The notes beneath the pieces were generated by a model, which saw only the letters and a program-made list of their open reading frames with translations, was not told the origin of the DNA and ran no database searches. The position numbers and the translations under genes are program-made. Below, piece by piece: positions 17,293-37,936 of a stretch of DNA of 38,006 nt. The DNA is taken from the NCBI GenBank assembly GCA_040756905.1, contig JBFLYD010000061.1:1-38006 (forward strand). Direction: 5' to 3'. Position 1 is the first letter of the stretch, and the number at the start of each line of letters is the position of its first letter. The stretch comes from Acidobacteriota bacterium. GTDB lineage: Bacteria > Acidobacteriota > Aminicenantia > JBFLYD01.

Positions 17293-17469
17293 ATGATATT
17301 CTTATTGGAACCCATTACTTTATTCGATTTGTTAAATGGATTTGAAATTGGTCCAGATTCAGGAACAGCTTCATCTGCAGCAGGTGTATGTGCAGAATGG
17401 TGTGAGACTTATTGTAGAAGTTGGCAAGGTTGCGATGTCTGTTATGGATGGAAGAGCTGCGCGGGATAA
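17293..17469 (+). CDS. Six-Cys RiPP precursor peptide (sactipeptide/ranthipeptide-type candidate)
   Basis: A 58-residue peptide starting at the ATG 17293 behind a strong AAAGGAGGTGAAAAGAG ribosome site. The leader (residues 1-31) contains ITLFDLLNGFEIGPDSGTAS. The core (32-58) is VCAEWCETYCRSWQGCDVC followed by YGWKSCAG. Cys lie at 33, 37, 41, 47, 50 and 56, so it begins as a CxxxCxxxC repeat. Cys-rich cores next to a radical SAM/SPASM enzyme are typical substrates for Cys-to-alpha, beta or gamma-carbon thioether bonds. It is the first gene of module A; a hairpin and 54 bases separate it from the maturase gene. The sequence is too short for usual gene calling. The modification type is inferred from the neighbour, not proven. 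Confidence 0.75.
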   Translation: MIFLLEPITLFDLLNGFEIGPDSGTASSAAGVCAEWCETYCRSWQGCDVCYGWKSCAG

Positions 17470-17481
17470 AGAGTTGAGCCA

Positions 17482-17513
17482 AGAGAGGCGGGGTATAAGA
17501 ATCCCGTCTCTCT
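17482..17513 (+). terminator. Hairpin between precursor A and maturase gene
   Basis: AGAGAGGCGGGGT (17482-17494) pairs with ATCCCGTCTCTCT (17501-17513). It lies 12 bases after the precursor stop and ends 10 bases before the maturase ATG, without a U-tract. It likely acts as a partial terminator or 3' stabiliser that makes precursor mRNA more abundant than maturase mRNA. Confidence 0.55.
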
Positions 17514-17523
17514 AAAGAAAAAA

Positions 17524-18849
17524 ATGAAAGCTTCAAAATATAATTTATTTTTAGAGGAAAAAGAATACGTTCTTTTATATAACTTATTATCACTTGCTTT
17601 AGTCAAATTAGAGAGTGAAAGTGCTGAGATTATAAAGACCATATTAGAAAATAAAAGCGATTTACAAAAATTACAAAGCTCTGAATTGTATAAAAAATTA
17701 ATTTATGGAAAATTTTTGGTTGAAGACGATGTTGACGAACTTAAAATTCTAAAAGTTAGAAATATGCTCGGAAGGTTTTATAAAAGAAGTTTTGGTTTGA
17801 CAATTGCTCCAACTCTAAATTGCAATTTTAAATGCACATATTGTTACCAGAGAATTAAGAAAATCGACATGAGTGAACAAACGCAAGATGATTTAATAGA
17901 TTTTACTAAAAAAGCTTTAATAGACAAGATACTTTTTGGAGTTACATGGTACGGAGGAGAACCCCTTTTAACAGAGGACATTATTTTTAGATTATCTGAG
18001 AAATTTATTGAGATTTGTAATGAGAGTAAAATACCTTATTCTTCTGGAATTATAACTAACGGTTATTTATTAGATGATAGAATTATCGATAAATTAGAAA
18101 ATTACCAGATTAATAATATTCAAATAACAATGGATGGACCAAAGGATATTCATAATAACAGAAGGAAATTAGAGAATGGAGATCCTACCTTTGATAGAAT
18201 ATTGAATAATATAAAGAATCTATCCAATAAGACAAAGGTTAGAATTATTTTAAGAGTTAATATAGACAAAGAAAACTATGCAAGAGCACCAGAACTTTTA
18301 GAATTGTTAGAAAAAGAAGGGATATTAAAAAGAATAAATATTAGTTTTTCACCCGTTCTTGGTTACACAGAGACTTGTAGTAATTATGTGGATAAATGTT
18401 TTACAAGAAAAGAATATGCAGAATTGCAAATTAAATTTTCAAGAGAAGTCTTAGATAAAGATCCTATTATTAAAAAAATGCCCTCACCGAAACTTGGATA
18501 TTGCTCTGCGGATTCGTGGGCAAATTATGCAGTAGATCCAGAAGGGCTCTTATATAAATGCTGGACAGACATAGGAGAGAAAGAATGGTCTGTAGGAAAT
18601 ATTAAAGATAATATTGTTACAAGTAAATTATACGATTATCTCGGATGGGATCCCTTTGCATATGAGGAATGCGTGAAATGCTTATATCTGCCGATTTGTA
18701 TGGGAGGCTGCCCAAGAATTAGACTTGCGGGAAAAAAACCACCTGAAATGTGTGAATTATGGAAATATAATTTAAAGGAAATATTAAAATTGTTTTATCT
18801 TATTCATCAAAGAGAAGAGACACAGAAAAGTGATATTCCTAATAAGTGA
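17524..18849 (+). CDS. Radical SAM/SPASM peptide maturase
   Basis: A 441-residue enzyme. The N-terminal ~85 residues look like a RiPP recognition element or linker region that would bind the leader. The radical SAM motif CNFKCTYC lies at residues 100-107, followed by TWYGGEPLL. The C-terminal SPASM domain contains CSADSWANYAVDPEGLLYKC (about 324-343), then CVKCLYLPICMGGC (about 383-396) and PPEMC, enough cysteines for two auxiliary [4Fe-4S] clusters. This architecture is that of sactipeptide/ranthipeptide maturases such as AlbA and the CxxxC-repeat group. The substrate should be the six-Cys peptide immediately upstream. Two M16 peptidases and an exporter follow, an order like sboA-albA...albEF. 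It has no clear Shine-Dalgarno; translation may depend on the hairpin just upstream. Confidence 0.88.
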   Translation: MKASKYNLFLEEKEYVLLYNLLSLALVKLESESAEIIKTILENKSDLQKLQSSELYKKLIYGKFLVEDDVDELKILKVRNMLGRFYKRSFGLTIAPTLNCNFKCTYCYQRIKKIDMSEQTQDDLIDFTKKALIDKILFGVTWYGGEPLLTEDIIFRLSEKFIEICNESKIPYSSGIITNGYLLDDRIIDKLENYQINNIQITMDGPKDIHNNRRKLENGDPTFDRILNNIKNLSNKTKVRIILRVNIDKENYARAPELLELLEKEGILKRINISFSPVLGYTETCSNYVDKCFTRKEYAELQIKFSREVLDKDPIIKKMPSPKLGYCSADSWANYAVDPEGLLYKCWTDIGEKEWSVGNIKDNIVTSKLYDYLGWDPFAYEECVKCLYLPICMGGCPRIRLAGKKPPEMCELWKYNLKEILKLFYLIHQREETQKSDIPNK

Positions 18850-21824: not shown

Positions 21825-22973
21825 ATGAAATTAAAAATTGAGAAGAAAACCACTCTTATTTTACTAATTCTTTATTTCATCACTCCTTTTGCAACATCTG
21901 AAGAAAATGCTTATCCAATTATAAAGACCCCCAAAAATCCTCTTTATGGGAGTTACGAGCTTAAGCTGAGGAAGGATTTAATAATAGGGAATGAGTCTTA
22001 CGATCAATATCTATTTGGTTCAATTAATGGAATTGAAGTCAATGATAGATATATGTTTGTTTGTGATTCGAAAATGGTGAGGATCCAGGTTTATGATTTA
22101 AAGGGAAGATATGTTAGAACTATTGGGCGGAAAGGAAACGGACCAGGTGAATTCTTAATACCGAACACTTTTTGTGTAAGCAGAAATGGAAATATCTATG
22201 TTCACGATGTAATGAGGAGAAGAATGATAGTATTTGACCAAGAAGGTAACCATAAAAGGGATATAACATTAGAAAAAATTTTAGCAGGAAAATTTTATGT
22301 AGATGAAAATGGATATATTTATTCCTCTATCCTTGAATTCGAATCCGAAAATGACATGTATATCTATTTCATTAAGATGAATCCTCAAGGAAAATTGCAA
22401 AATATTTTCAGAAAAGAATTTTATTTGTCCCCAATTTTCGATACAACTTCTGGAAATAAGATGAGAATTTTTTATGATCATCCTTATCTGGCCAATTTAT
22501 ATTTCACTGTGACTAATGGAAATACATTAGTATTGATGAATTCCCTGGTTTATGAATTAGATTTCTTATCTCAAGATGGAAAGGTTTTAATGAAGATTGC
22601 AAAAGATGAAAAGAGCGAAAAAGTAAGCGAAGAAGAAAAGGAAGGGGTGTTTTCTGATAGATTTAAAGATACCCCTAAGAGCGTATTAAAAAATGTTACC
22701 TTTTCCAAGCAAAGACCTTATTCATCTAATATCCTGACGGATGAAACAGGGAGAATATATGTAGAAAGATTTAAACCTGTGACAGAAGAAGATAAGGGTT
22801 ATAGTTATGATATATTCAATAAAAAAGGTGAGTATTTATATCGATCGAAAATCGGTTTCATAGCCAACCTAATAAAAAATGGATACTTGTATAACATTTC
22901 AGTAAAAGAAGAAGCGGGGGAAATTAGAATTATTCGTTATAAGATTGAAAATTGGGGTGAAATGAGATTTTAG
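21825..22973 (+). CDS. Secreted six-bladed beta-propeller protein
   Basis: A 382-residue protein with a signal peptide (LILLILYFITPFATS) and NHL/six-bladed beta-propeller repeats: VNDRYMFVCDSKMVRIQVYD, LKGRYVRTIGRKGNGPGEF, VSRNGNIYVHDVMRRRMIVF and later DETGRIYVERF. The GRKGNGPGEF signature is typical of bacterial six-bladed propellers found near secreted peptides and ABC permeases. It has a strong ribosome site (AAGGAGG). Its place between peptidases and exporter suggests a periplasmic or outer-membrane role in module A, for example peptide binding or immunity. Another propeller occupies a comparable place in module B. The function of these proteins is not established. Confidence 0.82.
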   Translation: MKLKIEKKTTLILLILYFITPFATSEENAYPIIKTPKNPLYGSYELKLRKDLIIGNESYDQYLFGSINGIEVNDRYMFVCDSKMVRIQVYDLKGRYVRTIGRKGNGPGEFLIPNTFCVSRNGNIYVHDVMRRRMIVFDQEGNHKRDITLEKILAGKFYVDENGYIYSSILEFESENDMYIYFIKMNPQGKLQNIFRKEFYLSPIFDTTSGNKMRIFYDHPYLANLYFTVTNGNTLVLMNSLVYELDFLSQDGKVLMKIAKDEKSEKVSEEEKEGVFSDRFKDTPKSVLKNVTFSKQRPYSSNILTDETGRIYVERFKPVTEEDKGYSYDIFNKKGEYLYRSKIGFIANLIKNGYLYNISVKEEAGEIRIIRYKIENWGEMRF

Positions 22974-25079: not shown

Positions 25080-26450
25080 ATGATATTCATCTTGACCAAA
25101 AAAGAAATATTAGAAGACATTTACAACATAAGATTTATTATATTAGTTCTCTTGTGTTCTATCCTAATCCCTTTAACATTGTTTATTAACCAGAAAGCTC
25201 TTGATCGAGATATAATAGATTATTATCAAACACTTACTAAATATGAAGAAAAACTAAAAAGCGGATCCCATAATACTCTTACATTTGAAGCAAGCGGATT
25301 CCGGCCTCCCTCTGAATTGAGAATTTTCAGCATTGGATTAGATACTACTCTACCAAGTTCGATAATAATTACACGTGACGAAGGAATAAAATCAGGTGAA
25401 AACAAAGCAGAAGATAGTCCGTATCATGCTTTTCTTGGGAAAATAGATTTTTTATTTATCATAAAGGTAGTTATGTCTCTCGTTGCTATGATTTTTACTT
25501 TCAATGCTATTTCTGGAGAGAAAGAACAGGGAACGATAAGGCAGATACTTTCAAATTCAATACATCGCTATAAAATAGTAATAGCAAAATATCTCGGAAA
25601 TTTTATTATTCTCCTTTTTCCATTTATACTTGGATTAACCTTAGGATTGTTGATAGTTATTACAAGTTCGGACACCCAATTACTCAGTAGTAATCATTTG
25701 TTAAGAATTATTTTTATGTTCCTAATCGCATTAATCTATATTTCTCTATTCTTGAACCTTGGTTTGTTTATTTCAGTAATAACAAAAAGATCATGGACAT
25801 CAATAGTTTTTCTCTTATTCATCTGGGTCATTTTCGTGCATGTCATTCCGCAAATATCAGGAATGATCGCTGAGACCTTATATCCTGTAAAATCTGTGAG
25901 AGTTTTGAATATTGAAAAAGATATCCAGAAAAAAAGTATTGAAAAAGAACAAAGCAAAGAGTTGCAAGAAATATTCATGAAGAATAATTATGATGAGCTT
26001 CGAAAACCAATAGTAGAAAAATACAAAAAAATCTTAGCAGAAAGATTAAGAAATATTGATCAGGAACATAAAAATAGAAAAAGAGTTCAGAGAATTATTG
26101 CTAACACAATATCAAGAACTTCTCCTTCATCATCGCTGACTTTTATCTTTTCAGAACTGTCAAATACAGGAATTTTAGAGATGGAAAATTTCATAACAAG
26201 CGCCCTGCAATTTCAAAACCTCATAGAAGCTAATGTTTATGCTGACACTTACACTGACGATGTGGGTTCAGGAATGTCAGTAAAGTTAGGAGCAGGAGAT
26301 TTTTCAAATATACCTCGATTTAATTATCGAAAAGTTGAATTTGTTAAATCTATTTTATCAATTCAACTTGATCTCTTTTTACTTATTCTATTTAATGCAC
26401 TGTTATTTTCTTTGAGTGCTTTTCTTTTTATTACTTATGATGTCAGATAA
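25080..26450 (+). CDS. ABC-2 type permease
   Basis: A 456-residue membrane protein of the ABC-2/DUF3526-like group. It has an N-terminal helix (IILVLLCSILIPLTLFI), a periplasmic domain of ~100 residues, then helices around IIKVVMSLVAMIFTFNAI, IILLFPFILGLTLGLLIVI and SIVFLLFIWVIFVHVIP, a second soluble region and a last helix. The coupling segment SGEKEQGTIRQILSNSI and the C-terminal YDVR are shared with the permeases at 32069, 33380 and 37349. Such permeases need a separate ATPase, and none of that type is in the window. The gene lies 171 bases after the exporter gene behind GAGAAGGA. A role in peptide export or self-protection is inferred. Confidence 0.82.
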   Translation: MIFILTKKEILEDIYNIRFIILVLLCSILIPLTLFINQKALDRDIIDYYQTLTKYEEKLKSGSHNTLTFEASGFRPPSELRIFSIGLDTTLPSSIIITRDEGIKSGENKAEDSPYHAFLGKIDFLFIIKVVMSLVAMIFTFNAISGEKEQGTIRQILSNSIHRYKIVIAKYLGNFIILLFPFILGLTLGLLIVITSSDTQLLSSNHLLRIIFMFLIALIYISLFLNLGLFISVITKRSWTSIVFLLFIWVIFVHVIPQISGMIAETLYPVKSVRVLNIEKDIQKKSIEKEQSKELQEIFMKNNYDELRKPIVEKYKKILAERLRNIDQEHKNRKRVQRIIANTISRTSPSSSLTFIFSELSNTGILEMENFITSALQFQNLIEANVYADTYTDDVGSGMSVKLGAGDFSNIPRFNYRKVEFVKSILSIQLDLFLLILFNALLFSLSAFLFITYDVR

Positions 26451-26546
26451 AAATACTCATTGGCAACTTGGAACTGGACATCGGTAATCTGTAGTCAGAA
26501 ATTAGTAAATTGTGATAATGATCAATTACCAGAGAAAGGAGGAAAA

Positions 26547-27401
26547 ATGTTTGAAGAAGAAAAATCTGAAGAAACAAAATTTTGTAGAAGAAAGGTTTTA
26601 AAAGCTTTATTTATTGGTGTATTAAGCTTAATACCAATTCCAAAACTACTATCACAACAAACAGAGAAGAGACAGCTTAAAAAGCAAGTTAAAATAAATT
26701 CAGGCGTGGAACCGTGTAATGAGGAATCCATTGTAGCCAATATTCAACCACAATTTAAAATTGGTCAGACATTCAAATATAAAGCGATAAGAACCGATAA
26801 AAAATTACCCGAAGATGTGGTTGGTAAACAAGTTGCACCAGGTAAGATTGTGTTAACGAGTGAGCCAATACCAATAGAACAGACTATCAAAATTGAGGGA
26901 TACGAAGAATACAAAGATGAAAAGTGCTTTTTAATTAAAAGGGAGGCAATCCTTGAAAATCCTGTTTTACAGTTCGCTTCAGAAATTCCTGAAAAAACAG
27001 TTGAAGAAAAAACAACTACATATATTAATGAAGCAGGAAAAATTCTTTATTCTGAGTCAAAAACGATTTTAAAGGAAGGGCAAAGTACAAGTGTAAGTAC
27101 TAATAAAGTGCATAGTCTGCCATTCTCAGCGGATATATATTATTTTTATGGTTACTGGATGTTAGCTCTTTCTCAAGACTTTTCCTGGGAATGTTTACAA
27201 AATACCCCAAAGGAGCAAATCTTAAGGAGTATTAAAGTAAAAGGCAATGAAAGAATTAATGGAAAAAACTGTTATGTTGTAGAAAAGTTATTCAGGGCTG
27301 AATCAACGGGTTCAGAAATTATCACATTCTGGATCGATCTTAAAAACAGGGTTGCGATTCAAGTTAAAAAAGGGAATTCAATAATTAAACTCATCTTCTG
27401 A
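26547..27401 (+). CDS. Tat-type secreted protein of unknown function
   Basis: A 284-residue protein starting at the ATG 26547 behind AGAAAGGAGGAAAA; an upstream in-frame start at 26460 lacks a ribosome site. The N-terminus FCRRKVLKALFIGVLSLIPI resembles a twin-arginine signal (RRxxLK followed by a short hydrophobic stretch). The mature part is beta-rich and contains two similar halves, each with a GYEEYKDEKCFLIKRE or GNERINGKNCYVVEKLF segment, ending with FWIDLKNRVAIQVKKGNSI. The pattern G.E.I.G..C..V... F.WID resembles the LolA-like/DUF3108-type lipoprotein-associated folds and parallels the module C protein at 36671. It is the last gene of module A. A Tat signal would mean export in folded form; this is inference. 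Confidence 0.65.
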   Translation: MFEEEKSEETKFCRRKVLKALFIGVLSLIPIPKLLSQQTEKRQLKKQVKINSGVEPCNEESIVANIQPQFKIGQTFKYKAIRTDKKLPEDVVGKQVAPGKIVLTSEPIPIEQTIKIEGYEEYKDEKCFLIKREAILENPVLQFASEIPEKTVEEKTTTYINEAGKILYSESKTILKEGQSTSVSTNKVHSLPFSADIYYFYGYWMLALSQDFSWECLQNTPKEQILRSIKVKGNERINGKNCYVVEKLFRAESTGSEIITFWIDLKNRVAIQVKKGNSIIKLIF

Positions 27402-27470: not shown

Positions 27471-27872
27471 TTATACTATCCAGTAAATAGGTATTTTGTT
27501 CTCAAGGATTTTAAATTCAGGGTCTCCTGTAACAAGATCTGCATTAAATTGAATGGCTGTAGAAGCAGCAAAAGCATCAGCATAGGAGATTGGATTTTTT
27601 GACTTTATCTTAGCAGCGTTAAGGATATTAATTTCATCTGGCACCACAAGGTTTAAAGGCCATTTTTTTATAAAGGCAATTGCTTTATTCGCTATTTCTT
27701 CATCAGTCTCTCTTATAAGGATGTAGTATATCTCTCCGATATTGATCCAATTCAAATAGATTTTTATTTTGCCTTCTTCAGCCTTTAATAAAAGCTCTTT
27801 GACTCTGTCTTTCCCTTTCTCTCCTTTTTGATAAGCCAGAACAGAGTAACTATCCAAAGCAAAGTTCTTCAA
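27471..27872 (-). CDS. vapC: PIN-domain toxin (VapC-like)
   Basis: A 133-residue PIN-domain ribonuclease. The N-terminus FALDSYSVLAYQKGEKG has the first acidic residue of the active site, NIGEIYYILIRE the second, and SYADAFAASTAIQFNADLVT with GDPEF the rest. Length and order match VapC toxins, which cleave RNA, often tRNA or rRNA. The start overlaps the antitoxin gene by four bases (ATGA), the usual coupling for toxin-antitoxin pairs. It lies between modules A and B and converges with module A. Whether it is active is unknown, but no key residue appears lost. Confidence 0.88.
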   Translation of the reverse strand: MKNFALDSYSVLAYQKGEKGKDRVKELLLKAEEGKIKIYLNWINIGEIYYILIRETDEEIANKAIAFIKKWPLNLVVPDEINILNAAKIKSKNPISYADAFAASTAIQFNADLVTGDPEFKILENKIPIYWIV

Positions 27873-28123
27873 AGGATCACCTTTTTTGCTTTTTCAAATT
27901 TTTCTTCTTCTTTTCTATTCTCATCAAGGACTTCCTTCACTGTCTTTTTGAATTTCAACCATCCTTCAGCTCTTTCAATTGGGTTATCTGGAAGAGGAAT
28001 TAGAATAATCTGATCTCCAAGATCAAGGAACTCGACTATAGTTCCTTCCTTTATATCATATTTTTTTCTCAATTTAGATGGTATAACTAATTGCCCTTTT
28101 TTGAAGACTTTTGAAGAATACAT
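27869..28123 (-). CDS. vapB: AbrB-family antitoxin (VapB-like)
   Basis: An 84-residue antitoxin. The N-terminal SpoVT/AbrB swapped-hairpin domain (KVFKKGQLVIPSKLRKKYDI, then KEGTIVEFLDLGDQIILIPL) binds DNA as a dimer. The C-terminal tail (WLKFKKTVKEVLDENRKEEE) would wrap around and neutralise the toxin. The start has a ribosome site (AAGGAGGAGCAATG). It is the first gene of the pair and normally represses its own promoter. It is located 107 bases before the left end of cassette B. A second toxin-type fragment lies beside cassette C, but that one belongs to a different PIN subgroup. Confidence 0.88.
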   Translation of the reverse strand: MYSSKVFKKGQLVIPSKLRKKYDIKEGTIVEFLDLGDQIILIPLPDNPIERAEGWLKFKKTVKEVLDENRKEEEKFEKAKKVIL

Positions 28124-28519: not shown

Positions 28520-29248
28520 ATGTCTAAAAAGGTCTTGGTTATCTCTGAGGACAAAAGAATCTTTGATTTTATCAGGAGTTCTTTAGGTTCTTCTGTTTTA
28601 ATTGAAAATCCTGGAATTGATGAAATAAATCAAAAAGATAAACCCTATGAGTTTATATTCTTGGGATGTGATTATAGGTGTTCTTTTATATTTTGCATGA
28701 GAAAGTTTCTATTTCTAAAGATGAATAAAAAAATTCCTTTTTTAGTCATAAGACCCATATTGCTTGAAAGAGGATATGAATCATATGGAGGGTTTTTATC
28801 TTCTTTTTTTGAAACCTATACACTTTCTTCCTTTCAAGAAGAAATTCCAAGGAAGATAAAAAACTCAGAGCATTATGGATGTTCTCCAGGATGGATGATT
28901 CACCCTTCTAATCTTCTTTTTAAGATTTCCAAGGTTCAAAGAGAAATTGTTGAGAACCCATGGAAAAGATTTAACCTTTTTTCATTCTCAGAGAATGTTT
29001 CTCTATCTCCTTCATGGCTTTCTTTAAAATTTAATGAAATTTCAGGGATATCCTTTGAGAGATTCTCAATAAGGATAAGATTCTGTTACTCCCTCTGGGA
29101 ACTTCTCTCCACAGAAAAACAGATTAAATTAATTGCTTATGAGAGAGGGTACAAAGACCCTCTCTCTTTTACAAAGAGATTCCACTCTTTATTTGGAGTA
29201 GCTCCATCATTTGTGAGAAAAGAATTCAACACACTTTCATCAAGATAA
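28520..29248 (+). CDS. AraC-type regulator with degenerate receiver-like N-terminus
   Basis: A 242-residue regulator. The N-terminus (KKVLVISEDKRIFDFIRSSL ... EFIFLGCD) has the strand-helix order of a receiver domain but lacks the usual phospho-acceptor and acidic pocket, so it may be a pseudo-receiver. The C-terminal third (about 150-242) is an AraC/XylS DNA-binding domain with two helix-turn-helices; the second ends in YERGYKDPLSFTKRFHSLFG and VAPSFVRKEF. It is the only intact copy; its last 32 codons recur in cassettes A and C. Its stop codon lies inside the first of three 20-bp direct repeats that precede module B. It is the best candidate for binding these repeats and activating all three modules. 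Direct evidence for binding is not in the sequence. Confidence 0.8.
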   Translation: MSKKVLVISEDKRIFDFIRSSLGSSVLIENPGIDEINQKDKPYEFIFLGCDYRCSFIFCMRKFLFLKMNKKIPFLVIRPILLERGYESYGGFLSSFFETYTLSSFQEEIPRKIKNSEHYGCSPGWMIHPSNLLFKISKVQREIVENPWKRFNLFSFSENVSLSPSWLSLKFNEISGISFERFSIRIRFCYSLWELLSTEKQIKLIAYERGYKDPLSFTKRFHSLFGVAPSFVRKEFNTLSSR

Positions 29249-29361: not shown

Positions 29362-30378
29362 ATGGCTTCCAAAAAAATCTTCATTTTCATACTGCTAACA
29401 ATGATTATTCTTATACTCATTTATAATCTCTATAAATATGAATTTTTATTTCACCATTCCCTTAGATATGGAGATAAAATTAAAAAATTCGAGTTTAAGA
29501 ATCCTGAACTTGGGAAAGTAACACTGAAAGAGGGACAATGGAACTTAATCATAGTGGATAGAAGTTTAGAAGAAGACTATAGTCTTATTAGATATATTAA
29601 TGCTTTATTTACTAAAAAATTTAAGGATTTGGGACTGAATATTATATTATTTAGTAAGTCTGAGAGAAATATTGCAGAAACCTTCAGGAGAAAATTTAAC
29701 ATTTTATTTCCTATTTTATCTATTAAAGATAATTCCAATATTCTTAAAGAATTATCAAAGCTTAGAGAAAGTCAGCGATGGATTCTTATCATTGATCCTA
29801 ATCTAAAAGTCGAATTTATTTCTGATTTTATAAAAGATGAAGATATCAGACAATTATTGGAAAAATACATATTAGGAAAGATTAGTTATATTGATGTAAT
29901 TAAAGAGGAAAAATTGAAGGTTGGCGATTCTTTCCCTCCAATAGAGGTTATAAATTTAGAATCCGGTGAAAAAAAAGTTATTACTAAAGATTTCACTTCA
30001 TCTCCTCATTTATGGATTATCTTCACATCAAACTGTATTTCTTGTGCTTTAGAATCTCATTTACTTATGTGGAGTTTAATAGAAAAGAACTTAGAGAAAA
30101 AATCAAATTTATCAATGGGCTTGATTTTCAGTCCTTATTTCAATAAAGAAGAAATTATTTTTAGAGTTAAAAAACTAAATATTCAAACCCCAATCTTCTT
30201 AGCTGAAAGCGAGCTCTATAATATTGAAGATACTTATTATAAAAGGCCATATGGACAAGATGATGTTATTGTTATCAGGACAGATCTAAAAAATTTTATA
30301 ACTTATTCAGAATCACTCTCGACTTTTCTCAATCATATAAAAGGAGGTTATCTCAATGCAAAAACTTCGTTGTTTTAG
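29362..30378 (+). CDS. Membrane-anchored thioredoxin-fold protein with CISC motif
   Basis: A 338-residue protein starting at the ATG 29362 behind AGGTGGAG (an upstream frame extension to 29296 runs into the cassette). A signal anchor (IFIFILLTMIILILIYNLY) places it on the outer face of the inner membrane. Two thioredoxin/TlpA-like domains follow: the first (about 35-170) lacks cysteines; the second begins at VGDSFPPIEVINLESG (about 195) and has the redox-type CxxC in FTSNCISCALES (about 228). It could form or shuffle disulfide bonds in the Cys-rich peptides encoded further downstream in the operon. Its 3' end overlaps the propeller gene by 23 bases. The CxxC is seen; the partnership is inferred. 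Confidence 0.72.
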   Translation: MASKKIFIFILLTMIILILIYNLYKYEFLFHHSLRYGDKIKKFEFKNPELGKVTLKEGQWNLIIVDRSLEEDYSLIRYINALFTKKFKDLGLNIILFSKSERNIAETFRRKFNILFPILSIKDNSNILKELSKLRESQRWILIIDPNLKVEFISDFIKDEDIRQLLEKYILGKISYIDVIKEEKLKVGDSFPPIEVINLESGEKKVITKDFTSSPHLWIIFTSNCISCALESHLLMWSLIEKNLEKKSNLSMGLIFSPYFNKEEIIFRVKKLNIQTPIFLAESELYNIEDTYYKRPYGQDDVIVIRTDLKNFITYSESLSTFLNHIKGGYLNAKTSLF

Positions 30379-31423
30379 TAAAATAAAGATTTTGAGTTTC
30401 ATTATCTCTTCTGTGATTGTATCCTCCGCTTTTGAAGTCCTATTAGCTGATGATCTGAAAATTTATGAAGCAAAACTTGAAGAGGTAGCTTTCAATATGC
30501 ACTTTACAGACATTCAGAAGATTATTCCAGCTGAGGAGACCATATTTGTTTTAGAGATGAAGAATCATCGTATTATCTTTATTAAAGATAAGAAAATCAT
30601 TGGCCAAATAGGAAAAATAGGAAATGGAAAAGGGGAGTTCTATTATCCTTCAGATTTTTTTATTGACAAACATGGACTCTTCTATGTACTTGATAAAGGC
30701 AATTATAGAATTCAGATATTAGATTCAAAGGGGATTTATTTAAGCGATTTCCCAGATTATCCCGAAAGCTGGGGATTAGCTGTTAATTCTAAAGGGGAGA
30801 TTTTATTAGGACAGCCAGCATTGAATAATCTGGTCTCTGTTTATAATCCTAAAGGAAAAAGATTGCGAAGCTTCGGCTCTCTCATTAATCCCTCAGAGAT
30901 TTATGGAATGGATTATAAAAAATATAATGAAACTCACAAAGTGCCATTAAATCGGATTCGGATAGCTTTAGACGAAAATGACAATGCATGGTTAGTATTT
31001 TTACATGCCCCATTAATCTGCAAATATAACCAAAAGGGTGAACTAATTTACAAAAAGATTTTAAATATCCCCGACTTACAGCCTCTTAAAAAAGCTATCT
31101 GGCAAAGTCCACCTCCTTATGAATACGCTTCTATTAATATTGATGGTATTCAGTTAACGATGATCATTAGGGATATTACTTTTGATCCCAAAAAGAAACA
31201 AATTCTAATTCTATTAGGAGATCAAAGAATCGTGGCTTTTAATTCAGAAGCAAATGAACAGTTTATTATTAAGCCGAAATTTAAAGAAGGTAGTTTGAGG
31301 GATTTGTCTGTTAATAAAAATGGTGAGATCTTTGTATCCATATTTTTCTCACCTAAATGCTATAAATTGATTCTATCTTCCGAAAAAGAAGATAAGAAAA
31401 AAATTGAAGGAGGTGAACTATGA
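30356..31423 (+). CDS. Secreted six-bladed beta-propeller protein
   Basis: A 355-residue protein with a signal peptide (ILSFIISSVIVSSAFEVLLA) and NHL-type propeller repeats: NHRIIFIKDKKIIGQIGKIG, GNGKGEFYYPSDFFIDKHG, FYVLDKGNYRIQILDSKG and ILLGQPALNNLVSVYNPKGK. The NGKGEF turn is the counterpart of the NGPGEF turn of the module A propeller, which it resembles in length and place. The start has a strong AAAGGAGG site. The stop overlaps the first Cys-rich peptide gene (ATGA), and its 3' coding sequence supplies the GGAGG ribosome site of that peptide. This close coupling suggests that propeller and peptide are made in step, and perhaps interact. Part of its 3' end was copied along with the second peptide gene. 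Confidence 0.82.
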   Translation: MQKLRCFSKIKILSFIISSVIVSSAFEVLLADDLKIYEAKLEEVAFNMHFTDIQKIIPAEETIFVLEMKNHRIIFIKDKKIIGQIGKIGNGKGEFYYPSDFFIDKHGLFYVLDKGNYRIQILDSKGIYLSDFPDYPESWGLAVNSKGEILLGQPALNNLVSVYNPKGKRLRSFGSLINPSEIYGMDYKKYNETHKVPLNRIRIALDENDNAWLVFLHAPLICKYNQKGELIYKKILNIPDLQPLKKAIWQSPPPYEYASINIDGIQLTMIIRDITFDPKKKQILILLGDQRIVAFNSEANEQFIIKPKFKEGSLRDLSVNKNGEIFVSIFFSPKCYKLILSSEKEDKKKIEGGEL

Positions 31424-31602
31424 TAAAAAAATTCTTAATGGGTCTACTTGTTGTTGTCTTCGCTCTGAGCCTATTTTTAGCCGTTGTTCCGATTAATGTT
31501 TCTGGAGCATGTTGCACTTCTGATGATAAGAAAAGTACATGTTGTGGACCATGCTGTAAAGCTGGCCCAACTTGGTGCGAAGCCGGAAAATGCGCTACAT
31601 AG
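31420..31602 (+). CDS. Secreted eight-Cys peptide 1
   Basis: A 60-residue peptide with a Sec signal (MIKKFLMGLLVVVFALSLFL, continuing to VSGA) and a ~31-residue mature part containing eight cysteines: ACCTSDD, STCCGPCCKAGPTWCEAGKC. Proline and tryptophan (GPTWC) are also present. The start lies seven bases after GGAGG and overlaps the propeller stop. The Sec signal makes cytoplasmic radical SAM processing unlikely; the cysteines more likely form disulfides or bind metal in the periplasm or outside. It resembles in plan, not in sequence, the small secreted peptides that accompany six-bladed propellers in Bacteroidota (NVEALA group). A hairpin terminates or stabilises the transcript just downstream. 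The role is unknown. Confidence 0.75.
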   Translation: MIKKFLMGLLVVVFALSLFLAVVPINVSGACCTSDDKKSTCCGPCCKAGPTWCEAGKCAT

Positions 31603-31623
31603 TTCATGCTGGTAGTTTTTCTT

Positions 31624-31648
31624 AGGGAGGGAATGTAATCCTCTCCCT
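31624..31648 (+). terminator. Hairpin after peptide 1
   Basis: AGGGAG (31624-31629) pairs with CTCCCT (31643-31648), with further weak pairing inside. It lies 21 bases after the stop, followed by TCTTAAATAATA. It probably is a leaky terminator or 3' stabiliser, since genes of the same module continue downstream. Confidence 0.45.
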
Positions 31649-31724
31649 TCTTAAATAATAATAACAATAAAATATGAGAGAAGAAATTGTGAAAAAGAAG
31701 TGTTAGATTAAACATAATGAGAGG

Positions 31725-31802
31725 AGATAATAGAATCGCAGTTTTTAAATCAGAGGCAAATGAACAGTTTATTATTAAACCGAAATTTGAAGGAGGTGAA
31801 CT
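31725..31802 (+). repeat. Duplicated propeller 3' fragment before peptide 2
   Basis: The stretch AGAATCGCAGTTTTTAAATC through GAGGCAAATGAACAGTTTATT and TTAAACCGAAATTT matches codons near the end of the propeller gene (about 31227-31290) and then joins GAAGGAGGTGAACT, the sequence just before peptide 1. This is a tandem duplication scar with an internal deletion. It brought the peptide's ribosome site with it. Confidence 0.75.
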
Positions 31803-31994
31803 ATGATAAAAAAATTCTTAATGGGTCTACTTGTTGTTGTCTTCGCTCTGAGCCTATTTTTAGCTGTTCTTCCAGTTGGCGTCTCAGGAGCAACTTGCAC
31901 TTCTGGGGATGGGAAAAAAACATGTACAGGACCATGCTGTGAAGCTGGCTCAACTTGGTGTGTCGCTTCAGATTGCCCAAAGGTGGCAAACTAG
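31803..31994 (+). CDS. Secreted six-Cys peptide 2
   Basis: A 63-residue paralogue of peptide 1. The signal peptide and ribosome site are almost identical at the DNA level (first ~25 codons), whereas the mature part has diverged: ATCTSGDGKKTCTGPCCEAG then STWCVASDCPKVAN, with six cysteines. The positions of TC, GPCC, TWC and the last C are kept, and two cysteines of the CC pairs are lost. Faster change in the mature part than in the signal suggests diversifying use, such as a different target or metal site. It is expressed from the duplicated GGAGG site and followed by a strong hairpin. Confidence 0.75.
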   Translation: MIKKFLMGLLVVVFALSLFLAVLPVGVSGATCTSGDGKKTCTGPCCEAGSTWCVASDCPKVAN

Positions 31995-32068: not shown

Positions 32069-33373
32069 ATGATGTGGGAAATTGCAAAGAAAAGAGTAAG
32101 AATAAACTTGATTACACGAAGGTTTTCAACAATCTCTTTTCTTCTCTTCTTTTTAATCTTATTCTCTCTATTCACTTCTATTAGCACCTTTAAAAAAAGA
32201 ATATCATATTATAATGAAGATATATATTCTCATCTTTTCAAGCTCGATCCCTCAAGAATTAACATGTATTCTAATGTAGAGATTGGATTTGATAGACCTC
32301 CTGAAAAATTGAGTATTTTAGCCGGGGGGATAGGAGAAAAATATGGTTCTTGTGCTATTATTAGGGGAAAATATGGACCAACTATTATTAGAAGCAGAGA
32401 GAAATCTAATTTCTTTCTTTTTAATCCACTTCCTTTTGATTTTATTCATGTTTTAGGCTTAGTTATCAGCTTAATGGCAATTCTTCTTTCCTACGACACT
32501 ATCTCTGGAGAAAGAGAAGAGGGAACCTTACAACTTTCTTTATCAAATTCAATTGGAAAATATAAAATACTTCTTGGTGAATATATTGGTGCAATGCTTT
32601 CCCTTCTTATCCCTCTTTGTCTTTCCTTTCTTGGAGTTATAATTATTCTCCAGCTTCATCCTGATATTAGTTTTGATCTGGAGATGTTAGGTGAGATATC
32701 AGTGCTTTTCCTAAACTCTGTGTTTTTGACCTCTGCATTTGTTATGTTGGGGATTCTTATCTCATCATTAACACGGCAATCAAATACCTCCTTACTAAGT
32801 GCTTTTTTTATTTGGGTTATTTTAGTAGCTATATACCCGAATCTTACATCATGGATTTCTCTCTATGCTAAGTCAGTAGAATCCCTTGTTGAATTGACTT
32901 CTACCAATATAATTACAAAAATGTCTCCTGAACATATTTTAGAAGAAAAGGTTCAAATAGATAAAAACCAAAAGGAATTCAATTTAAATAAAAGATTTGA
33001 ACAATCAGATTTTGAAAATAAATTAAAGCTCTTTTCTCCTTTTTCAACCAATATATTATTATCACAAATTATTGCCGGAACGGATGTTGGAACTCAAAAA
33101 AAATTTATTAGTCAGATTAAGAATTTAGAACAATCTTTTATAAAATGGCAGAAAGAAAAGCTCAAAAAATATCCGCAAAGGGAATCTTTTTTTATAGCGG
33201 GATGGGGGGCTGTTGATTTAAAAGATTTACCATCTAACGAATTCAAAGGAGAAAGTTTGGCTGAAAGGATAGAAAGAGCGATTCCATATATGGCTTCGGT
33301 TTTAATTTTAAATATTATTTTATTTTATATGAGCTATATAATCTTTATTAAATACGATCCAAGATTTGGCTAA
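32069..33373 (+). CDS. ABC-2 type permease
   Basis: A 434-residue membrane protein related to the permease at 25080. It has a first helix (SFLLFFLILFSLFTSISTF), a soluble domain with YGPTIIRS, then helices around FIHVLGLVISLMAILLSYD, AMLSLLIPLCLSFLGVIII and SLLSAFFIWVILVAIYPNL, a second soluble region and a final helix. The coupling segment is SGEREEGTLQLSLSNSI and the C-terminus is KYDPRFG. It begins with tandem ATGs (32069, 32072) without a clear Shine-Dalgarno, six bases before which the strong peptide hairpin region ends. Together with the next gene it may form a heterodimeric permease for module B; a partner ATPase must be encoded elsewhere. Confidence 0.8.
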   Translation: MMWEIAKKRVRINLITRRFSTISFLLFFLILFSLFTSISTFKKRISYYNEDIYSHLFKLDPSRINMYSNVEIGFDRPPEKLSILAGGIGEKYGSCAIIRGKYGPTIIRSREKSNFFLFNPLPFDFIHVLGLVISLMAILLSYDTISGEREEGTLQLSLSNSIGKYKILLGEYIGAMLSLLIPLCLSFLGVIIILQLHPDISFDLEMLGEISVLFLNSVFLTSAFVMLGILISSLTRQSNTSLLSAFFIWVILVAIYPNLTSWISLYAKSVESLVELTSTNIITKMSPEHILEEKVQIDKNQKEFNLNKRFEQSDFENKLKLFSPFSTNILLSQIIAGTDVGTQKKFISQIKNLEQSFIKWQKEKLKKYPQRESFFIAGWGAVDLKDLPSNEFKGESLAERIERAIPYMASVLILNIILFYMSYIIFIKYDPRFG

Positions 33374-33379
33374 ATTAAA

Positions 33380-34822
33380 ATGAAAGGACTCATAATAAAT
33401 AAAACTATTCTTAATAACATTTATGACTTCAAATTTTTGATTTCAAGCTTGATAGTTATCTTGTTGCTAATCTTAGGGACTTCTATGAGTATTTCTAATA
33501 TTTCATTACAATCGAAGGAATATAACAGATTTCAGAGCCTTGCAGAAAATGAAAAAAATCTTGAAAATGTTAAAGTAATAAAAAGACCGAACAAATTTAT
33601 ATTTGCTCATGAAGGAGGGGAAAGAAACTTGCCACAATATCTTATTGTACTTCCTTATTTTGTTGATTATCCTATTGAAGACCTTAGCTTGAAACCTTTT
33701 ATTGAGAATCTTCAAAATCTGGATTGGTCATTTGTTGTTGGGTATTTATTTAGTCTTATTGCCTTTCTTGTTACCTATGATTTGGTATCAGGAGAAAAGG
33801 AGAAAGGAACATTGAGATTATTAGTTTCCCAACCTATTTCTAAGGATTCTTTTTTGTTTGGAGGTTTTTTGGGTGCTTTATTGAGCCTAATTCCATTTCT
33901 TTTAATTGGACTTATAATTAGCATAATAATTATCCTATTTAATGCAAATATATCTTTTGATGAAAACGATTGGATAAAAATTTTCTTCGTCATTATCCTT
34001 TCCTTCTTTTTCATTTCCTCTATGGTATTAATCGGAATCTTCACCTCTACGGTATCTACTAAATCTTCTACATCACTTATTATCTCACTCATAATATGGG
34101 TTTTTATAGCAATTATAATTCCCAATGGAGGTGTTCTTGTAAGCGAGATTATATCTCCTATCCCATCATTTAAGGAATTTGAAATAGAATTGAGGGGAGC
34201 GGAAAAAATATTTTATTCCAAAATCACATTATCATCAATAATGTTAAGGGAAATTTATACAAGAAGGGATTTAAGCAATGCAGAAAAAAGGAATAAAGTA
34301 GATCAGCTTCAAAAGAAGATATATAGAGAAAATAGACAAGCTCTTGAAGAATATAAGCAGGATATACTAAAGATAAGAAAAAATTATTTAAAAAAATTAG
34401 AAAATCAGATGAGATTGGCAAAGATAAGCTCTAAACTCTCTCCGCTCTCTGTATATATGAATTCAATTGAAGGGATAGTTAGGACAGGATACGCCCATCA
34501 ATTAACCTTTTTTAGAATTGCAGAGCAATATATGAGAGAATACACTATATATGCAAATAAAATGCAAGAAGAACTTAAAGATAAAGCTAAAATTATGGGT
34601 CCAAAAATCGTTGACGAAGGATATGAAGTTGAAGGCATAAGCTGGATCTCCTATAAAGATATCAATTTTGATAAAAGTTCGTTTCCTAAATTCCCAGAAT
34701 ACAACTTAACTATTTCTAATACTTTCCCCATTGCTCTTATTGACATAGGTATTTTAATATTCTTTAACATATTATTTTTTGTATTATCATATGTTAAATT
34801 CTTATCTTATGATGTAAGATAA
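33380..34822 (+). CDS. ABC-2 type permease
   Basis: A 480-residue permease starting six bases after the previous stop. Topology follows its neighbour: FLISSLIVILLLILGTSM, a periplasmic domain, SFVVGYLFSLIAFLVTYDLV, LLSLIPFLLIGLIISIIII, IIFFVIILSFFFISSMVLI-like helices, a long soluble helical region (about 255-430) and a last helix ending in LSYDVR. The coupling segment SGEKEKGTLRLLVSQPI matches the family. The two adjacent permeases with the same plan suggest a heterodimer that exports or extracts a substrate linked with the Cys-rich peptides. No ATPase of this type lies in the module. This is the last gene of module B. Confidence 0.8.
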   Translation: MKGLIINKTILNNIYDFKFLISSLIVILLLILGTSMSISNISLQSKEYNRFQSLAENEKNLENVKVIKRPNKFIFAHEGGERNLPQYLIVLPYFVDYPIEDLSLKPFIENLQNLDWSFVVGYLFSLIAFLVTYDLVSGEKEKGTLRLLVSQPISKDSFLFGGFLGALLSLIPFLLIGLIISIIIILFNANISFDENDWIKIFFVIILSFFFISSMVLIGIFTSTVSTKSSTSLIISLIIWVFIAIIIPNGGVLVSEIISPIPSFKEFEIELRGAEKIFYSKITLSSIMLREIYTRRDLSNAEKRNKVDQLQKKIYRENRQALEEYKQDILKIRKNYLKKLENQMRLAKISSKLSPLSVYMNSIEGIVRTGYAHQLTFFRIAEQYMREYTIYANKMQEELKDKAKIMGPKIVDEGYEVEGISWISYKDINFDKSSFPKFPEYNLTISNTFPIALIDIGILIFFNILFFVLSYVKFLSYDVR

Positions 34823-35583: not shown

Positions 35584-36678
35584 ATGAATTTATATTTAAA
35601 ACCAAGAAGAATGTCTGAAATTTGGGGCATTAATAAACAGCAGCAAGAATTTGAGGGATGGGTTATAGGATATGATAATATCTTTAAATTAGACCATATT
35701 TCATCCATTATATGGGAAAATATAAATGGAGATAGATCAGTCAATGAAATTATTAATATTATTTCAGAAATGTATCCTACGATTGATAGAAATACAATAA
35801 AAAATGACATTATTGAGTTATTAACTAATTGGGTAAACGATAGACTAATTAGTTTAAATTATAAAATGTTAGAATCTCTTATAAAAAAGCCCAAGTCTCA
35901 GAGAGTATTAACCCGATTAGAAAAAAATCAAGAAATTGATATATTACTTTCATCTACTCCTTCACCATATCCAAGAGATATGATCATCCTAAAAATTTTT
36001 GCATTCCCCCCTTTAGGAATTGGATACATAAGTTCTTTGCTCCGACAACATGGTTTTAAAGTAGAATGTGCAAATCTTGCCGGGTTAGACAATGAAAATA
36101 TTGAACGAGTTCTATCTTTTATCACTACATTCTGCGTTTGTTATCTCTTTTTTATTCCTCTAACAATAGTGATAGAAGAAATTTGTCATTCTTTTGTTAT
36201 TTTTAAAAAAAATAAAAATTTAAAGAAGTTCTTCTTAGAAATAAGAAGTATTTGTAGCTCAAATAATAAGCTAATTTTTATAAAAAATTGTTCAGTTAAT
36301 TTTGAAGGAAATTTTACATATTTAGATTATATTCACTTTTTAGGAGGAGGTCCTCTTGGAGCTCTTCTTTTTTTGATTATTCTACTTCCAATTATTTTAT
36401 TATTTATTAGTAATAAAATGTTTTTAAGTTCAAGGCATTTGTTTATTATTTATTTTTTAATGACAGTGATACCAATAAATTCGCTATTTATAGGAAAAGA
36501 ATCTGATGGAAGAAAAGCTTTTAGGATTGCTAAAGAAAATGAATTGTCAACCTTTGAATTTATTTATGAATTTATTAAAGGTGCATTTATACTTCTCCCA
36601 TTTTCCATGGAAAGAGCTAATTTGAAAAAGAAAATAAAAAACGATAATATTTTCAAGGAGAAAAGGAAAAATGTTTGA
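35584..36678 (+). CDS. Chimeric PqqD-like / B12-binding / M50-like membrane protein
   Basis: A 364-residue fusion. Residues 1-105 resemble PqqD or a RiPP recognition element (YDNIFKLDHISSIIWENING, DRSVNEIINIIS). Residues 115-175 match the start of a B12-binding radical SAM enzyme (IDILLSSTPSPYPRDMIILK, FPPLGIGYISSLLRQHGFKV). At about 176 the sequence changes to membrane helices with IPLTIVIEEICHSFVIF, where M50 metallopeptidases have HExxH, and later PINSLFIGKESDGRKAFRI, like the M50 N..P...DG motif. So an in-frame deletion seems to have joined a maturase gene to a site-2-type peptidase gene, removing the radical SAM core. Both active sites look incomplete (EEICH lacks the first His). It overlaps the next gene by eight bases. 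The remaining role, perhaps leader binding, is uncertain. Confidence 0.6.
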   Translation: MNLYLKPRRMSEIWGINKQQQEFEGWVIGYDNIFKLDHISSIIWENINGDRSVNEIINIISEMYPTIDRNTIKNDIIELLTNWVNDRLISLNYKMLESLIKKPKSQRVLTRLEKNQEIDILLSSTPSPYPRDMIILKIFAFPPLGIGYISSLLRQHGFKVECANLAGLDNENIERVLSFITTFCVCYLFFIPLTIVIEEICHSFVIFKKNKNLKKFFLEIRSICSSNNKLIFIKNCSVNFEGNFTYLDYIHFLGGGPLGALLFLIILLPIILLFISNKMFLSSRHLFIIYFLMTVIPINSLFIGKESDGRKAFRIAKENELSTFEFIYEFIKGAFILLPFSMERANLKKKIKNDNIFKEKRKNV

Positions 36679-37336
36679 AAAGAGAAACTTACTCAAACTT
36701 TTTATAATTCTGTTTTTTTCAGGAAGATTAATGGCTCAAGAGTTAAATCATGTCCTCCTTAAATATAACTCCAATATTCAAAGACTTTCTCAGTACTTCA
36801 AGGATTTAACCGTTACTCAGAAAATCACCTTAGATACAGAAGGGATGACTTTTGAGGAGGTAAGCATTATTTATTATAAAGTAAACAAGAAGGCAAAGAA
36901 GACCCTTGAGTTCAAAAGGAAAAAGATGCCAGAAAAGATTCCAGAACTCGATTTCTTCACAGGGTTTCCAATCTCTGAGAAGGATTATAAGATTTCTATC
37001 ATTGGGAAGGATAACATAGATGGGGAGGAATGCTTTAAGATCAGCCTAGTCCCTAGAAGAAAGGACAAGACATTAATTAATGGATTTATCTGGGTCTCAT
37101 TCAATGATTATGTATTAATAAAATTTGAGAGTTCTCCATTGGATAAACCCACTATGGTAAAGGAGCTACATATTACTCAGATATATTCAAAAAATCCAGA
37201 TGGAATATGGCTCCCTTCAAAAAGAATACTCAATTCTATCGCTAATGCAATAATCAAAGATATAAAATCTATAACTACCTTTGAATACTATGATTACAAG
37301 ATCAACTCAGGGATAAAGGATGAGATATTCAAATAA
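36671..37336 (+). CDS. LolA-like secreted protein
   Basis: A 221-residue protein with a signal peptide (LLKLFIILFFSGRLMAQ). The mature part has the half-barrel strand pattern of LolA/outer-membrane lipoprotein-sorting relatives: YFKDLTVTQKITLDTEGM, GKDNIDGEECFKISLVPRR, GFIWVSFNDYVLIKFESS and GIWLPSKRILNSIANAI. Such proteins bind lipids or acylated proteins in the periplasm. A similar plan is seen in the protein at 26547 of module A, which suggests a shared envelope component of these modules. The ribosome site AAGGAGAAAAGGAAAA lies inside the upstream gene, with an eight-base overlap. Its base and codon use look slightly less AT-rich than the preceding gene. Confidence 0.72.
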   Translation: MFEKRNLLKLFIILFFSGRLMAQELNHVLLKYNSNIQRLSQYFKDLTVTQKITLDTEGMTFEEVSIIYYKVNKKAKKTLEFKRKKMPEKIPELDFFTGFPISEKDYKISIIGKDNIDGEECFKISLVPRRKDKTLINGFIWVSFNDYVLIKFESSPLDKPTMVKELHITQIYSKNPDGIWLPSKRILNSIANAIIKDIKSITTFEYYDYKINSGIKDEIFK

Positions 37337-37348
37337 CAGAGGAAAAGT

Positions 37349-37936
37349 ATGATAAAAGAGATTACCTTTAAAGAGCTAAGAGGAACTCTATTAAGTTTTA
37401 AATTCTCGATAACATTTTTAGTATGTTTTATAACAATACTTTTAAGCATTAACATAGGAACTCAGAACTATAAAAACAAATTAAAAGAATATCATTATGG
37501 AAATGAATTGAGCAAAAAGACTTTTCAAATATATGATTCTTGGGAATCCATTGCCAATGAAGGTATTCAGATCTCTATGAGGCCATCTTCTCTGAGCATA
37601 TTCTGCAGTGGAATTTTAAATTACACTGGTGATGTTTTCACTCTATCTGGATTTTCTCCTCCTTCACCCAATCCCAGTAAGTATGGTAAAAGTCCCATAT
37701 TAGCAATATTTGGGGATCTGGATCTTTCTTTTATTTTGAGAGTTATATTGAGCTTATTCTCTATTTTATATACTTATGATGCAATATGTGGCGAAAAAGA
37801 ATCAGGAACATTGAAACTTCTGTTAAGCAATTCTATAACAAGGGCTCAGATTATCTTTGGAAAAGGATTGGGACTTTTTATCGGGAGTGCACCCCTAAAA
37901 GTGGACACTAAATTAAGACACATTTTCAATATATAA
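37349..37936 (+). pseudogene. ABC-2 type permease truncated by IS3-family element
   Basis: The first ~180 residues of a permease of the same family as 25080, 32069 and 33380: a first helix (FSITFLVCFITILLSINIG), a soluble domain, SFILRVILSLFSILYTYDAI and the coupling segment CGEKESGTLKLLLSNSI. After GKGLGLFIG the frame enters the IS3 end at 37888 and stops within it (SAPLKVDTKLRHIFNI comes from the IS). The remaining ~270 residues and the other helices are lost or lie beyond the element outside this window. It is the last gene of module C and shows that the module is broken. Confidence 0.85.

Follow-up and report, generated by a model that had tools for sequence, protein, structure and literature searches.

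A conserved gene set for a thioredoxin-like protein, beta-propellers and predicted secreted cysteine-rich peptides in Acidobacteriota

In Bacteroidota, genes for secreted peptides are paired with genes for beta-propellers, in a gene order that is known in outline. The NVEALA (PF14055) loci of that phylum resemble the locus described here in having small Sec-type peptides and propellers of the same Pfam group (DUF5128). Methylamine dehydrogenase has a propeller as its large subunit, and MauD and MauE probably assist its small subunit, which is rich in disulfides; the mau system (MauB propeller, MauE, thioredoxin-like MauD, and Cys-rich MauA) shares with the present locus the combination of a propeller, a thioredoxin-like protein, and a Cys-rich small protein. 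Sublancin is a disulfide-bonded bacteriocin with a dedicated oxidoreductase, BdbB, and anchored ResA/TlpA-like proteins act as reductases in several known pathways. The nearest published idea found is that of the mauE/mauD candidate RiPP families of Streptomyces (decRiPPter), which place proposed thiol machinery beside a predicted small precursor; the same paper also carries the speculation that MauE aids disulfide formation in the small subunit of methylamine dehydrogenase (PMC7794033).

The window is the whole stretch of DNA that was analysed, 38,006 nucleotides from an Acidobacteriota bacterium (GTDB lineage Bacteria; Acidobacteriota; Aminicenantia; JBFLYD01; assembly GCA_040756905.1, contig JBFLYD010000061.1). 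The operon and the genes that bear on it are as follows:

21825-22973, plus strand: propeller B-like DUF5128 protein (DUF5128, E 6.7e-22)
28520-29248, plus strand: AraC-type (HTH_18) regulator adjoining the operon, a candidate local regulator
29362-30378, plus strand: thioredoxin-like protein (ORF listing, 338 aa)
30356-31423, plus strand: propeller A (Pfam DUF5128/NHL matches, Sec-type export signal)
31420-31602, plus strand: peptide 1 (ORF listing, 60 aa)
31722-31797, plus strand: non-coding remnant of a propeller 3' end, a copy of 31216-31291
31803-31994, plus strand: peptide 2 (ORF listing, 63 aa)
32069-33373, plus strand: ABC-2 permease a (ABC2_membrane_2, E 8.6e-29)
33380-34822, plus strand: ABC-2 permease b (ABC2_membrane_2, E 1.6e-25)

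The thioredoxin-like and propeller A genes of the window overlap by 23 nt, and the propeller stop runs into the peptide 1 start through the 4-nt overlap ATGA; that this stop and start overlap had been noted in a preliminary description of the sequence. The starts of peptides 1 and 2 have an identical strong Shine-Dalgarno sequence, GAAGGAGGTGAACTATG. A gap of 74 nt separates peptide 2 from ABC-2 permease a, which is followed after 6 nt by permease b. The operon thus extends beyond 31994, and orthologs of the ABC-2 permeases trail the same genes in another class. AraC-type HTH genes adjoin the G060:C8 cassettes as well. Promoter and terminator scans gave counts not above those of shuffled sequence. 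Every element named in the preliminary description is present, but it missed the ABC-2 permeases, the usual second propeller, and the probable origin of peptide 2 by duplication.

The product of 29362-30378, described earlier as a membrane thioredoxin-like protein with CISC, has a single N-terminal hydrophobic helix without a lipobox and is predicted to be anchored in the membrane. It is composed of two thioredoxin-like domains: domain 1 is thioredoxin/peroxiredoxin-like and has no active-site cysteine, and the CxxC (CISC, residues 225-228) is located in domain 2 only. Among 12 homologs, the second cysteine of this motif is retained in all and the first in 11. The protein alone gave only weak matches, to AhpC-TSA and ResA, while a profile of six members matched ResA (4nmu) with an E of 1.7e-10 over domain 1 only; the single-sequence structure model (pLDDT 47) gave a ResA-like ranking of structure matches, and a helix is predicted after the CxxC of domain 2 in this low-confidence model. 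The likeness to the ResA/TlpA/StoA oxidoreductases lies in a membrane-anchored thioredoxin-like protein with profile and low-confidence structure matches, whereas its tandem domains with the active Cys pair in the second only set it apart. The protein may act as a thiol oxidase or isomerase of the peptides, and a reductase role is equally possible.

Propeller A is a Sec-type, six-bladed beta-propeller of the NHL/DUF5128 type by its Pfam matches, scoring against DUF5128 (PF17170) with E 1.6e-8 and 34.5 bits (curated cut-off 22.9) and against NHL (PF01436) with E 3.5e-8 and 33.5 bits (cut-off 20), and weakly against TolB_like and DUF4934. Its profile also matches NHL propellers of known structure; the single-sequence model of the propeller is poor, with a pLDDT of 42. 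Close orthologs of propeller A are confined to genomes with the same peptide subfamily, and a physical pairing of peptide and propeller is plausible. The protein encoded at 21825-22973 is the window's closest relative of propeller B, which trails the peptides elsewhere, but its membership of the operon is uncertain since it lies about 7 kb upstream. The parallel drawn earlier with the peptide/propeller pairs of Bacteroidota stands as far as the propellers share a broad Pfam group, but not for the peptides, which are not NVEALA: no PF14055 match was obtained for the two window peptides and six other cassette peptides, in agreement with the earlier remark that the sequences differ from those of Bacteroidota. 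A scan of 60 class genomes gave no NVEALA match above the cut-off, with Bacteroides ihuae matching as the control, and the open-licence literature searched contains no mention of NVEALA.

Both predicted Sec-type peptides, with the eight and six cysteines noted before, were recovered by the ORF listing. Peptide 1 has a predicted signal peptide followed by a mature part of approximately 31 residues with eight Cys, while the mature part of peptide 2, approximately 34 residues with six Cys, has diverged from it; the signal peptides of the two are nearly identical. Upstream of peptide 2, the remnant at 31722-31797 is identical to the propeller 3' end (31216-31291) at 66 of 76 positions, so peptide 2 is most likely a duplicate of a block comprising the propeller end and peptide 1, with the propeller part partly lost. 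Between the two copies, three of 29 residues are changed in the signal (dN/dS about 0.25) as against 12 of 31 in the mature part (dN/dS about 1.2), both ratios by NG86 from few sites. C31 and C42 of peptide 1 are both Thr in peptide 2, that is, cysteines were gained or lost as a pair.

The cassette peptides as a whole have mature parts of 31-68 aa with none to three Trp, which are not conserved, and the Cys-rich peptides show CC and CxxC-like spacing, with almost no His in the window type. Of the 26 peptides counted, which come from 17 loci, 24 have an even number of mature cysteines (6, 8 or 10), and this evenness is kept while Cys spacing varies among subfamilies. The binomial P of 5e-6, valid if the peptides are independent, overstates the strength of this parity, because related peptides do not count as separate cases and the mature starts were placed by eye. 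One odd count (7) belongs to G450, a decayed locus in which the propeller B and thioredoxin-like genes are broken, and the other (G473:C19) hinges on the chosen end of the signal. The peptides form several families without a significant match in Pfam, NCBIfam, PADLOC or PDB, and searches of plasmids and viral contigs found no relative. Knottin toxins were rejected as relatives (E of at least 0.9, with similarity of spacing alone), and a match of 16 residues to an alphaproteobacterial MAG (L003) was ascribed to chance, as that frame has neither a signal peptide nor cassette neighbours.

The order of thioredoxin-like gene, propeller A, Cys-rich Sec-type peptide or peptides, and usually propeller B is found in the window and at 11 further loci, one of them in the window genome and 10 in nine other genomes, including one in another class. 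The cassette loci are the window, G060:C19, G469:C673, own-genome C57, G475:C798, G469:C1123, G224, G441 (propeller A frame broken), G170, G209, G450 (decayed), and G377:C62. Searches with the peptide or propeller led to G060:C19, G469:C673 and C57, and a thioredoxin-like profile, with the peptides unused, led to the other eight, of which four come from one genus; the window genome is the sole representative of its order among the genomes compared. In 142 genomes of the class, a three-peptide profile found true relatives in G060, in G469 (four tandem copies), and in G470 (two copies, at a contig end), those of G060 and G469 being located after orthologs of the window's thioredoxin-like and propeller genes. 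Profiles of the latter two proteins gave strong orthologs in the same three of the 142, namely the window genome, G060 and G469. With a broader thioredoxin-like profile, 13 loci were obtained from 11 class genomes; a phylum search added two loci in G377, of another class; a phylum search with the peptides only gave mostly chance matches and was of use for G060 only. Matches in G020 and G410 were discarded, as no cassette is present there.

Propeller B lies downstream in all cassettes except those of the window and G209, and is a fragment in G450; in G209, a propeller gene is upstream on the opposite strand; the peptide gene is often tightly packed between two propeller genes. Several loci depart from this order. 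The G462 locus is ended by the contig edge, G377:C74 has a thioredoxin-like gene, a propeller and an ABC-2 gene with no peptide seen, G473:C19 has a peptide and propeller B with no thioredoxin-like gene in the stretch examined, and G256 has a relative of propeller A alone, with neither a thioredoxin-like gene nor a peptide. G060:C8 holds two further arrangements, partly without a thioredoxin-like gene in the stretch examined; there (L129 9705-10188), two tandem Sec-type peptides with a twin CX3C, helical-hairpin-like, are encoded between a short thioredoxin-like gene and a propeller. The G111 locus (L076 8775-9620) is a decayed or rearranged cassette, with a truncated propeller A frame and a Cys-rich peptide-like sequence without a clear signal in an overlapping frame.

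The association of peptide and propeller was examined across 19 loci with 143 non-overlapping ORFs of at least 200 aa, by looking for a small ORF on the same strand at -60 to 170 nt that begins like a signal and has six or more Cys beyond it. Such an ORF follows 11 of the 143, and all 11 are propeller A behind a thioredoxin-like gene; the informative part is its absence after the 132 other large genes, because the loci were mostly picked for a thioredoxin-like or peptide gene. With the same order repeated at 11 loci and only propeller A followed by peptides, the cassette is not a product of chance. Conserved synteny strongly supports the link proposed earlier between the peptides, the propeller and the CxxC protein, and peptides and propellers, far from lying apart in most relatives, were found together at the 11 further loci. 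No paper on this cassette was found in the open-licence literature, in searches that included propeller-peptide pairs and Clo7bot; the conserved gene set is, as far as searched, undescribed.

In G377:C62, the genes run in the order thioredoxin-like protein, propeller A, peptide, propeller B, ABC-2 a and ABC-2 b, and its permeases are the best matches of the window genes at 32069 (E 2.8e-51) and 33380 (E 2.7e-83), with the order kept. The ABC-2 pair was probably part of one ancestral gene set, although it is absent from most other loci. No ATPase gene was found beside the pair, including in G377. The window has four related ABC-2 permease genes (25080-26450, 32069-33373, 33380-34822, and 37349-37936), with mutual E of 1e-14 to 1e-31, the last being truncated near the contig end.

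Other parts of the window were also inspected. A 58-aa leader-type Cys-rich ORF (17293-17469) stands directly before a radical SAM/SPASM gene (17524-18849), whose product comes near the peptide maturases of the Clo7bot and TIGR04463 types, with a best E of 1.5e-122 that falls under the curated cut-off. Genes for a pair of M16 peptidases, for a DUF5128 propeller and for an ABC exporter come next; by its gene content, 17293-18849 with the following genes is likely a radical-SAM RiPP cluster. The ORF at 35584-36678 has an N-terminal PqqD domain, a weak B12-binding-like stretch and then unrelated hydrophobic sequence, and looks like a broken or fused gene. On the minus strand, adjacent PIN-type-like and AbrB-like ORFs (27471-28123) resemble a VapBC-like pair by eye. 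LolA-like envelope proteins are encoded at 26460-27401 and 36671-37336, one of the matches being weak, and PADLOC reported nothing relevant.

The reading considered best, given about even chances of being right, is that the cassette makes secreted peptides whose fold is held by disulfides, along with a cognate thiol oxidoreductase and with propellers as their partners. Sec would export the peptides, with cleavage after the signal, and the membrane-anchored thioredoxin-like protein would oxidise or isomerise them in the cell envelope through its single CxxC, its Cys-less domain 1 perhaps binding the substrate. Propeller A, whose translation immediately precedes that of the peptide, may bind the folded peptide as a carrier, surface receptor or protective partner; propeller B, encoded just after the peptide at most loci, may do likewise; and the ABC-2 pair, where present, could move the peptide or clear it from the producer's membrane. 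The preliminary description had left disulfide-folded and metal-binding peptides side by side; even Cys counts, the paired Cys change between peptides 1 and 2 and the conserved CxxC favour disulfides, and metal binding is the less favoured of the two. A conserved signal ahead of a mature part that changes fast, together with the tandem copies, suggests that the peptides have their target outside the cell, in rivals or in a signal receiver, and points to outward action rather than a fixed complex. As to the source of the disulfides, no VKOR was found in the window genome. A MauE-family gene (PF07291, E 5e-25) adjoins the C57 cassette and no other; present in 99 of the 142 class genomes, nearly always away from cassettes, MauE is not supported as a general cassette member.

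The tandem variants and the conserved signal before a diverging mature part would also suit a bacteriocin-like toxin with immunity, a special case of the best explanation in which the peptide inhibits relatives and the producer owes its own protection to the propellers and the ABC-2 pair. The pair is orthologous across classes and has a very weak match to a lantibiotic-immunity permease (MutG, E 0.98), but it is not seen in most other cassettes and propellers are not known immunity proteins; this form of the reading is considered unlikely. Outward action would give way to a fixed complex if the peptide, once folded by the thioredoxin-like protein, stayed bound for good to the propeller proteins as their small subunit, within a structural complex or an enzyme of the envelope, and was not released. 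The cast of genes as in the mau operon (with MauE at C57), the usual place of the peptide between two propeller genes, often tightly packed, and the speculation on MauE and the methylamine dehydrogenase subunit (PMC7794033) speak for it; no Trp pair for a tryptophan cofactor is conserved, though, the peptides are far shorter, MauE adjoins one cassette only, and rapid divergence and the four tandem variants in G469 are unusual for a fixed subunit. Bound subunits are considered unlikely, and identity with the methylamine dehydrogenase subunit itself was rejected from the missing cofactor Trp pair and the short mature parts.

Metal-binding secreted peptides (for copper, zinc or similar), with thiols kept reduced by the thioredoxin-like protein and propellers as uptake partners, would account for the very high Cys content and its spacing, and the best structural matches of the thioredoxin-like protein are to ResA/TlpA-like proteins, which are reductases in several pathways. 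The scarcity of His in window-type peptides, an evenness of Cys number that persists while spacing differs by subfamily, and the lack, by eye, of any clear gene for metal transport or metal sensing next to the cassettes make this quite improbable. In a further, very improbable reading, the peptides are precursors of RiPPs and the radical SAM/SPASM protein modifies them; it draws on the fact that the same window encodes a SPASM maturase of Clo7bot-like type as well as two M16 peptidases, a PqqD domain and an ABC exporter. Directly before this maturase, however, lies a leader-type Cys-rich ORF that is a candidate for its own precursor, the window peptides bear Sec signals rather than a RiPP leader, and homologs of the radical SAM, M16 and PqqD proteins are absent from the 21 other loci compared; the window peptides are probably not products of that locus.

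The cassette resembles bacteriocins of the sublancin/BdbB type in having a peptide with a cognate thiol oxidoreductase but differs from them in its Sec signal and propellers and in an operon without a glycosyltransferase or peptidase-containing exporter. From the mau system it differs in far smaller peptides and in having MauE beside one cassette only. The Streptomyces mauE/mauD families belong to another phylum, are likened by gene context and not by precursor sequence, and have no propeller mentioned in the passages on them (PMC7794033). A peptide with a dedicated thiol oxidoreductase is rated as a known kind, and the gene set with propellers and the peptide families are rated as new. In its broadest form, put forward tentatively and at somewhat less than even chances, the cassette may be a widespread system for a Sec-secreted, disulfide-bonded, fast-diversifying peptide with its own thiol oxidoreductase, two propellers and, in some lineages, an ABC-2 pair, serving as an arsenal or a signal with the propellers as peptide receptors. 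If true, these genomes would have a defined system for multi-disulfide peptides, and several peptide families absent from databases would be added. The cassette would also make it possible to test whether beta-propellers partner with peptides that bacteria secrete, which is known in broad terms from Bacteroidota and apparently unstudied, and it offers a search rule for more such peptides, namely to inspect the sequence right after propeller A.
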